Under the pieces are notes generated by a model. That model was not told the origin of the DNA. It worked only from the letters and a program-made list of their open reading frames with translations, and searched no databases. A DNA stretch of 64,000 nt, from positions 248,001 to 312,000 of the forward strand of contig NZ_AP014924.1 of the NCBI RefSeq assembly GCF_001544015.1, written 5' to 3'. Origin of the DNA: Limnochorda pilosa (lineage in GTDB: Bacteria > Bacillota > Limnochordia > Limnochordales > Limnochordaceae). Positions 54,652 to 58,361 of the stretch are shown piece after piece. The number at the start of each line of letters is the position of its first letter. The stretch's first letter is position 1. Position numbers and translations under genes: made by a program.

Positions 54652-55842
54652 TCACCGGGCCAAGCGATCGGGCAGGAAGGGCGCAAGGTCGTCGAGGTGG
54701 GCCGCCGGCGGCAGATCCGCTCCCGTGGCCTCTTCCAGCGCGACGAGCGGGTCGGAGCCTTGCATCCAGGCCGACAGGAGCCATCCGCTCACCGGGCCCA
54801 GGAGGATCCCGTTCCGGAGGTGACCGGTGGCGACGAAGAGGCCCCTGTGGCCCGGGACGGGTCCTAGGATGGGAAGGCCGTCCGGGGACCCTGGCCTGAG
54901 CCCCACCCGCCAGCCCGCAATGCGAAGGCCCGGCGCGCCGCCGGGCCAGAGCGCGTCGAAAAGGCGCACGCCTCCGTCCAGGAGCATCCGGGACCCCGCC
55001 AGGCTCGGGGCCGTGTCGGTCGCGCCCGGCTCCATGGTGGCGCCCAGGTAGAGGCGCCCTGACGCCTTGGGTACCAGGTACGCTCCTGGGCCGAAGACCG
55101 TCCGCCGGAGCGGCGTCGGTCCCTGGAGAACCAGCATCTCCCCCTTCACCGGGGGTACCGAGAGACGCACCCCGAGGCCACTCAGGAGCGGGCCGCTGCC
55201 ACACCCTGTGGCCAAGAGCACTCGATCGGCCTCGACCGACGCGCCGCCGGCCAGATCCACGCTCCAGCCCCTCGCTGCCGGCCGGATCGATACCGCCTGA
55301 CGGCCCAGCATGAGGCGCAGGTGGGGCGCGGACGCGATGAGCGCCGCGGTAAGCGCCTCCGGCTCGATCTGGCCGTCCTCCTCCAGGAGCACGGCCCCCT
55401 CGACCCGGGGCGGTTCCGGGAGCCCCAGGACGCTGGCGAGGTCGGCCGCCTCGACCCACCGGGCGCGCAGCCCCAGGGCTTCCTGCTGCTTGGCGGTCGC
55501 GTGCAGGACCTGAGCGCCTTCCTCGTCCAGGGCCACCCTTACGATGCCTTCGGGCCGGTACCCGAGCGAGAGGCCCGTCGCCTCTTCGAGTGCGGGAACG
55601 AGGGTGTCGAAGAGGCGGCGGCCCCTCAGCGCCAGAGCCAGGAGAGGCCCTGGCTCCTCCACCTCCAGCTGGGCTCCCAGCATGCCGGCCGCCGCCCCCG
55701 ACGCGCCGGAGGCGACCGCCCCCGCTTCGATCAGGACGACCCGGAGGCCTGCCCGGCTCAGGCAGTAGGCGGCCGAAGCCCCTACCACGCCGCCGCCCAC
55801 CACCGCCGCGTCGAAACGTCCTGCCCGGCTCGTCTCGTTCAC
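54652..55842 (-). CDS. thiO: Glycine oxidase ThiO
   Basis: 396 residues. The FAD motif AAVVGGGVVGASAAYCLSRA, SGASGAAAGMLGAQLE, the active-site GRLYLGATMEPGATD and the FAD C-terminal motif GLFVATGHLRNGILLGP fit ThiO, which oxidises glycine to iminoglycine (dehydroglycine) for thiazole synthesis. The GTG at 55842 overlaps the thiSG stop (GTGA). Position in a TPP-riboswitch operon supports the call over other amino-acid oxidases. Confidence 0.94.
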   Translation of the reverse strand: MNETSRAGRFDAAVVGGGVVGASAAYCLSRAGLRVVLIEAGAVASGASGAAAGMLGAQLEVEEPGPLLALALRGRRLFDTLVPALEEATGLSLGYRPEGIVRVALDEEGAQVLHATAKQQEALGLRARWVEAADLASVLGLPEPPRVEGAVLLEEDGQIEPEALTAALIASAPHLRLMLGRQAVSIRPAARGWSVDLAGGASVEADRVLLATGCGSGPLLSGLGVRLSVPPVKGEMLVLQGPTPLRRTVFGPGAYLVPKASGRLYLGATMEPGATDTAPSLAGSRMLLDGGVRLFDALWPGGAPGLRIAGWRVGLRPGSPDGLPILGPVPGHRGLFVATGHLRNGILLGPVSGWLLSAWMQGSDPLVALEEATGADLPPAAHLDDLAPFLPDRLAR

Positions 55843-56873
55843 GAGGCCCGGACCACCCCGCGGGCTGGGCTGCTGGGCTCAGCGGTCTCCCGGCGCGGCA
55901 TCAGCCCGGCTCGGTAGGCCAAACGGCCCGCGTCCACGGCCAGCCGCAGCGCGCTCGCCATGCCTACCGGGTCGCTGGCACGTGCGATCGCCGAGTTCAC
56001 CAGCACCCCGTCAGCCCCCAGCTCCATGGCCATCGCCACGTCCGAGGGCGAGCGCAGGCCCGCGTCCACGATCACGGGGACCTTCACCCGCTCCACGATC
56101 CGCCGGATGCTGGACCAGTCGATGAAGCCTTGCCCGGAGCCGATCATGGAGGCCATGGGCATCACCGTGGCGCATCCGGCCTCCTCCAGGCGGAGGGCGG
56201 TCACCAGGTCGTAGCTGGTGTAGGGGAGAACGGCGAAACCCTCGCTCACCAGGATGCGGGCCGCCTCCAGGGTTCCCTCGGGATCGGGCCAGAGGGTCTC
56301 GGGGTCGCCGATCACCTCCAGCTTCAGCCAGGAAGTCCCCGTCGCTTCGCGGGCCAGGTGGGCCATGTGGATCGCATCCCGGGCGGTGCGGGCGCCGGCG
56401 GTGTTGGGAAGGAGACGGAAGCGGCTCAGCTCCAACTGGTCCAGGAAGAGCGGGTCGTCGCCGCTTCCCGTCAGATCCATGTACCGGATGGAGCAGGTGA
56501 CCACCTCGGCCCCCGACGCCTCCAGCGCGCGGCGCATGGCCCGCGGGTCGCTGAACTTGCCGGTACCGGCCATCAGCCGGGAGCGGAGCGGTACCCCGGC
56601 GATGACCAGGGCGTCTCCTTCGGCCGGTCCGGCCTCATGCGGGGCGCGCTCCGTGGGCTCGGCCTGCTGGGAGCCACCGGCCATCACCCGCACCAGATCC
56701 ACCCGGTCGCCCTCGGCCAGGCCGACCTGGTCCCACCGCTCTCGGGGGACGACCTCTTCGTTGACGGCCGCGGCCAACCGTTCGGGCAGGCGATCCAGCG
56801 ACCGGACCAGATCGGCCAGGGTGGCGGTCGTCCCTTCCAGCTCCCGCGACTCGCCGTTGAGCAAGATCCGCAT
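55839..56873 (-). CDS. thiG: ThiS-ThiG fusion: sulfur carrier and thiazole synthase
   Basis: 344 residues. Residues 1-67 are ThiS (MRILLNGESRELEG ... RVMAGG) and a linker of about 20 residues leads to ThiG (VIAGVPLRSRLMAGTGKFSD). The Schiff-base Lys is in SWLKLEVIGD, about residue 184. ThiG condenses DXP, dehydroglycine and ThiS-thiocarboxylate into the thiazole phosphate. ThiS needs a free C-terminal Gly-Gly, but here the GG (66-67) is followed by Ser and the ThiG domain, so cleavage would be required. Such fusions are known. ATG at 56873 follows GGAGGAGGG. Confidence 0.94.
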   Translation of the reverse strand: MRILLNGESRELEGTTATLADLVRSLDRLPERLAAAVNEEVVPRERWDQVGLAEGDRVDLVRVMAGGSQQAEPTERAPHEAGPAEGDALVIAGVPLRSRLMAGTGKFSDPRAMRRALEASGAEVVTCSIRYMDLTGSGDDPLFLDQLELSRFRLLPNTAGARTARDAIHMAHLAREATGTSWLKLEVIGDPETLWPDPEGTLEAARILVSEGFAVLPYTSYDLVTALRLEEAGCATVMPMASMIGSGQGFIDWSSIRRIVERVKVPVIVDAGLRSPSDVAMAMELGADGVLVNSAIARASDPVGMASALRLAVDAGRLAYRAGLMPRRETAEPSSPARGVVRAS

Positions 56874-57645: not shown

Positions 57646-57670
57646 GAGCACTTCGACCGGGAGGAGGCCG

Positions 57671-57750
57671 CTTCCCTCCGCTGGCATGACCCAGATCAGG
57701 TTCCAGGGTTCGGGCGTGCCCGTCTCAGCCGGCTCCCGCCGGCACCCCCA
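57671..57750 (-). promoter_or_regulatory. TPP (THI-box) riboswitch
   Basis: The minus strand shows the conserved TPP aptamer elements: GGGGTGCC, GGCTGAGACGGGC, CGAACCCTGGAACCTGATCT and GGGTCATGCCAGCGGAGGGA. It lies about 80 bp before thiE, the first gene of thiE-thiSG-thiO. High thiamine pyrophosphate should reduce expression. Confidence 0.97.
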
Positions 57751-57822
57751 CGGCACCCGGTCACTGCATGAAATCGACCGCTCGTTTTTCATTCTACCGC
57801 AACCCGGGCCCTCGAGGCCACC

Positions 57823-58287
57823 TCATTCCTCCAGGATTTCCCACTCGTGCTCGATCTGCACGCAACCCTTCAGCGTCTGGGCCATGGGGCAGCCCCGCTC
57901 GAAGACGGCCAGGGCACGCTCCGCCTCCGGTCGCTTGCCGGCCGGGATTCTCAGATGGTAGCGGCAGCGGATGCGGGTCACCTTCATGACGCCTTCGGGC
58001 GCTTCCACGAACCCCTCCGCCTCGGTCCACAGCTTATCCGGATGGCTTGGGATCTGGCGCGCCTCCAGCGCGCCTGCGAGCGTGCCGGTGAGTCAGCCGG
58101 CGGTGGCCGCCACCAGGTGGTCGAGGGTGGCGGGGTGCTCTTCTTCGGGCGTGATGCCGTAGAACTCTCTTACCCCGGCGTGCACCCCGTAGCGAACGGG
58201 ATCGGGGAAGTCGGCGATGTACGCCCGGCGGTTGGGCCTCTCGTCCTGATGGACACGGATGCGGGCGATGTGGACCGGTTCGGGCAC
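57823..58287 (-). CDS. OsmC/Ohr-family peroxidase with in-frame TGA at the catalytic Cys (probable selenoprotein)
   Basis: A 154-residue reading if TGA at 58093-58095 is decoded. Upstream is IARIRVHQDERPNRRAYIAD ... HPATLDHLVAATAG; directly after the TGA comes LTGTLAGALEARQIPSHPDK, exactly where OsmC proteins have Cys followed by (T)GTLAGALEAR. The second family cysteine is intact in FERGCPMAQTL (C133). A perfect 7-bp hairpin starts 18 bases after the TGA. The simplest reading is selenocysteine at residue 65 of a thiol peroxidase; OsmC-like selenoproteins have been reported. A plain Cys-to-stop nonsense mutation is the alternative. Confidence 0.82.
58056..58074 (-). promoter_or_regulatory. 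Candidate bacterial SECIS hairpin
   Basis: On the minus strand GGCGCGC/GCGCGCC forms a perfect 7-bp stem with loop TGGAG. It starts 18 bases after the in-frame TGA of the OsmC gene, and the loop is about 25 bases after it. Bacterial SECIS elements lie in this range and carry a G in the apical loop. Confidence 0.65.
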
Positions 58288-58361
58288 GCGATCATCTCCT
58301 CGGGATCAGCCTCTGGCCTTGACCCCATTATAGGTAGGCCGGGCCATCTTGGCGACGTCGC

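Follow-up and report, generated by a model that had tools for sequence, protein, structure and literature searches.

A TGA-containing gene of Limnochorda pilosa that probably encodes a selenocysteine member of the OsmC family

The minus strand of the window (the whole 64,000-nucleotide stretch analysed, bases 248001-312000 of a single-contig 3.8-Mb genome) carries a gene that, judged from its sequence and from that of its homologues, is very probably intact and encodes a 154-residue selenoprotein of the OsmC family. Its reading frame, 58287-57823, has one internal stop, a TGA at codon 65, and the read-through product scores 50.7 bits against the Pfam OsmC model (PF02566), whose cut-off is 27.5. 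The features of the gene, in coordinates of the window, are these:

57823-58287, minus strand: predicted OsmC-family selenoprotein gene, with a GTG start, 154 residues, Sec at residue 65 and a terminal TGA
58093-58095, minus strand: in-frame TGA, presumably read as selenocysteine, residue 65, in the peroxidatic position; TGA at the same codon in 14/14 homologues
58056-58074, minus strand: SECIS-like hairpin GGCGCGC-UGGAG-GCGCGCC, starting 18 nt after the TGA
57889-57891, minus strand: TGC codon of Cys133, invariant in the clade and aligned with the resolving Cys of OsmC
57823-57825, minus strand: terminal TGA
58296-58300, minus strand: Shine-Dalgarno-like AGGAG, 8 nt before the GTG, read directly from the sequence
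58327-58355, minus strand: match to a sigma-70-like promoter, TCGCCA-17-TATAAT, 40 nt ahead of the start codon; a consensus match only, of which shuffled sequences would give 0.1

A preliminary description of this DNA had placed a lone TGA in the minus-strand OsmC frame, at the codon of the peroxidatic Cys, with the second Cys intact and a 7-bp hairpin with loop UGGAG beginning 18 nt further on, and it proved accurate on each of these points. The TGA is exact to the base (58095-58093), a profile alignment to solved OsmC structures sets residue 65 on the peroxidatic Cys, Cys133 is present and aligned with the second Cys of OsmC, and the hairpin (58074-58056) is perfect. On the downstream side, a TPP riboswitch (61 bits; window 57655-57759, minus strand) lies between the OsmC gene and thiE. 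Beyond it come thiE, a thiS-thiG fusion and a ThiO-like FAD oxidase (window 57590-54652); the fusion is a single frame of 344 residues on the minus strand (window 55839-56873), with ThiS and ThiG domains. That the riboswitch might form part of the unit of the OsmC gene was considered and rejected; it belongs to the next operon, downstream. Plasmid and phage collections, searched for a mobile origin of the OsmC gene, gave no match.

Fourteen homologues were found, 40-76% identical: nine loci from genome contigs, three from relatives, and two, more distantly related, from scanning 399 genomes of the phylum with a profile. All 14 have TGA at codon 65, with conserved sequence on either side of it, none has TAA or TAG there, and the frames are intact except that of L079, which comes from a draft genome and is frameshifted once downstream. 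Thus the decayed copies, with additional stops or frameshifts, that the preliminary description had named as grounds for abandoning its reading were not seen, L079 apart. The records are metagenome-assembled genomes (MAGs) labelled Bacillota, ANGP1, Gemmatimonadetes, Armatimonadetes, Acidobacteria and Hydrogenedentota; several are near-identical despite their unlike labels, some of which may be wrong, and about ten of the homologues are independent. Because Cys stood at position 65 of the queries and that site was left out of the peptide seeds, Cys forms would not have escaped the search. None was found in the clade, the one Cys protein returned by the 399-genome profile search being an ordinary OsmC (E 4e-6). 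The base rate of such a stop is low: among more than 140 OsmC-family matches listed in a scan of the phylum with the OsmC_like_Se model, an in-frame TGA occurs in one, and this sole other TGA-bearing match is an OsmC selenoprotein of the known type in genome G429. That genome carries both kinds, the present one at L078 (G429:C7) and the known one at L091 (G429:C67); the ORF just upstream of the L078 gene encodes a peptide that looks AhpD/CMD-like, as judged by eye. Genome G110 has two Sec OsmC copies (L036 and L037), both with the same 126-residue protein (MFKRIDHVEI...) downstream. Across the clade, no conserved gene neighbourhood was seen.

In bacteria, the SECIS element is a stem-loop whose small apical loop contains a guanosine and which stands right after the UGA (PMC1088965), and the loop UGGAG conforms to this rule. 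The six inner pairs of the hairpin form in 13/13 genes analysed, that of the window included, and in the alignment of 10 distinct sequences 100% of the pair cells are formed and no pair is broken. Three pairs change, two of them on one side and one on both, from G-C to A-U, together with an Ala to Val replacement in the protein; covariation is slight, this single double change being matched by 49/500 shuffles. Minimum free energy z-scores, which are near 0 for the hairpin of the window gene, are uninformative in a gene so rich in GC, and a synonymous-codon test was used in their place. Here the window gene gives P = 0.02-0.03, weakly significant by itself, because a GC-rich gene that encodes the peptide GALEAR readily forms a hairpin of this kind. 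The codon usage was taken from the loci themselves, which makes the test approximate, the more so in GC-rich loci, whose true P probably exceeds the computed one. The two G110 copies have a GC3 of 20-23%, yet their six hairpin codons have a GC3 of 67-83%, and synonymous sampling forms 6/6 pairs in 0.0002-0.0004 of the trials. Two further genomes, with a GC3 of 40%, give P = 0.003 and 0.001. GC-rich hairpin codons that synonymous sampling hardly reaches in AT-rich genomes point to a hairpin held by RNA-level selection at a fixed distance from the TGA.

Absence of the selenocysteine machinery was the other result by which the preliminary description would have been overturned. No such absence was seen, selA, selB, selC and selD all being present in the same complete genome: one selA (562 bits), two selB above the cut-off, two selD (400 and 391 bits), both interrupted by a single in-frame TGA, and two tRNA-Sec genes (81 and 69 bits), which share the anticodon UCA and are each followed by G73 and CCA. 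Other genes of the genome use TGA as an ordinary stop. Among the 13 homologue-bearing genomes checked, tRNA-Sec is present in 10; it was not found in the other 3 MAGs, possibly through incompleteness. The genome of a genus-mate (86% complete) has neither the OsmC selenoprotein gene nor a tRNA-Sec.

This machinery is in part duplicated, and the duplication is a more unusual feature than the OsmC gene itself. A second Sec-decoding set occupies about 10 kb at genome positions 368797-378100 (G000:C1, L062), 57-66 kb past the window end, and contains a selD with TGA, a tRNA-Sec, a selB and three UGSC-type selenoprotein genes (peptide D-TGA-GSC), which are next to this second tRNA-Sec and selB; tRNA-Sec, selA, selB and selD occur elsewhere in the genome as well. 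The two SelB proteins are 40% identical to each other, the one encoded beside selA being nearer to the SelB of a genome of the same order (44%), and at the DNA level the selD copies share 86% identity. In the second tRNA-Sec (L010:1501-1595; G000:C1:373376-373470), the anticodon loop reads CCUCAAA, with C33 for U33, and G73 and CCA are intact. To our knowledge, U33 is near-universal in tRNA. One further genome of the class, G020, has two good tRNA-Sec genes. Duplicate tRNA-Sec genes are known in bacteria and are rare (PMC5330540). The UGSC-containing selenoproteins (PMC2398784) are, like the OsmC gene, TGA-encoded Sec genes of this genome; they belong to another protein family with another hairpin, and are its company, not its kin. 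One speculative model, to which we give little credence, assumes that two separate Sec-decoding systems, with two divergent tRNA-Sec, two SelB and one SelA, divide the selenoprotein genes by hairpin type, one serving the UGSC island and the other genes such as that of OsmC. A single comparison of hairpins did not assign the OsmC gene to either of the two SelB.

The same data bear on two readings in which no selenocysteine is made. An ordinary Cys OsmC gene could have become a pseudogene by a point mutation of its Cys codon to a stop: the stop does stand in frame, the genome has a second, uninterrupted OsmC-family gene (G000:C1:99715-100005), and the selenoprotein gene is patchy among relatives. 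However, a chance mutation is hardly credible when TGA is kept at one codon in 14 homologues recorded from several phyla, whose frames are otherwise intact and have neither TAA nor TAG at the site, when synonymous sites of the hairpin are constrained, and when the genome holds the Sec machinery; on the retention of the TGA in particular, this explanation was rejected. The UGA might instead be decoded by a suppressor tRNA as another residue, such as Trp or Cys, or act as a regulated truncating stop, since UGA readthrough is possible in principle and most of the fold comes after the stop. This is very improbable as well, given that codon 65 is the position of the catalytic chalcogen, that the hairpin is conserved at SECIS distance, that most homologue genomes have a tRNA-Sec with a selenocysteine-type fold, and that UGA normally ends other genes of this genome.

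A selenoprotein of the OsmC family is therefore the reading that we retain, and its place in the family may be defined further. OsmC-like selenoproteins were reported in 2005 from the Sargasso Sea, with the motif UxxT (PMC1088965); they are of the COG1765/YhfA type and are modelled as NCBIfam NF041052, OsmC_like_Se. The preliminary description, whose selenoprotein reading is supported, had missed both this known type and the existence of a separate clade that appears to use Sec only. The present proteins share with OsmC_like_Se the OsmC fold, Sec in place of the peroxidatic Cys and a bacterial SECIS after the UGA. Membership in NF041052 was nevertheless rejected: against a cut-off of 95 bits, the window protein scores 23.1 and the other clade members 21-23 or give no match, and the motif is ULTG, not UxxT. 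In full, the clade has U-L-T-G-T (UxxG) where L091, of the known type, has U-L-L-T (UxxT), and it has, unlike the known type, an extra N-terminal segment (YGVHAGVREFYG) before the Sec helix. The clade forms a group of its own in the tree (support 0.99), whereas L091 falls among Cys proteins. With the Cys-based OsmC/Ohr proteins (E. coli OsmC, 1nye; T. thermophilus, 1ukk) it has in common the fold and a two-residue redox pair, and differs in having Sec in place of Cys and in scoring 23-35 bits with TIGR03562, whose cut-off is 86. Curated OsmC models as a whole give 19-35 bits against cut-offs of 86-166, and none of the NCBIfam models in the scan matched the clade above its cut-off. On the available sequences, the clade is thus a second OsmC selenoprotein subfamily, apparently Sec-only; we found no earlier description of it in the open-access literature, which is no proof of absence.

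The product is predicted to fold like OsmC. The AlphaFold model (mean pLDDT 86, pTM 0.82) has as its best PDB matches only OsmC/Ohr proteins (E ~1e-7), at moderate TM-scores of 0.5-0.6, and identity to the best solved structures is 18-21%. Sec65 and Cys133 do not vary within the clade, and neither do Arg20/21. For the catalytic Glu of Ohr/OsmC there is no exact equivalent; where the aligned YhfA-type proteins have their Glu, nine residues before Sec, the clade has an invariant Asp56. For this reason we infer peroxidase chemistry by analogy, and hold it to be probable. The product could also be a selenoprotein without peroxidase activity, a Sec oxidoreductase of other specificity (acting on persulfides or disulfides, for example) built on the OsmC fold. 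The distance of the clade from the curated OsmC models, the additional stretch ahead of the Sec helix and an Asp close to where the Glu usually stands would suit such an enzyme, which we consider unlikely, though well worth keeping in mind, as the Sec/Cys pair stands in the peroxidatic/resolving register of OsmC.

In Ohr, the hydroperoxide oxidises the peroxidatic residue, which forms an intramolecular bond with the second Cys, and this bond is reduced by a lipoylated protein or dithiol (PMC5962072). By analogy, the OsmC selenoprotein is likely a Sec65-Cys133 selenenylsulfide hydroperoxide reductase. SelB carrying Sec-tRNA(UCA) would bind the hairpin 18 nt past codon 65, the UGA at that codon would be decoded as selenocysteine, and the final UGA would still terminate translation. 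Sec65, in the place of the peroxidatic Cys, would then reduce organic hydroperoxides to alcohols; the selenenic acid formed on it would condense with Cys133 to a selenenylsulfide, which a cellular dithiol (a lipoylated protein or other) would in turn reduce.

Standard gene finders would split a gene of this kind. The genome, with its duplicated machinery, would allow a direct test of whether one cell runs two SelB/tRNA-Sec pairs that are orthogonal. For the OsmC peroxidases, the finding adds a second, apparently Sec-only branch, which suggests that selenocysteine was taken up independently in the OsmC family, or that it was kept there without reversion to cysteine.
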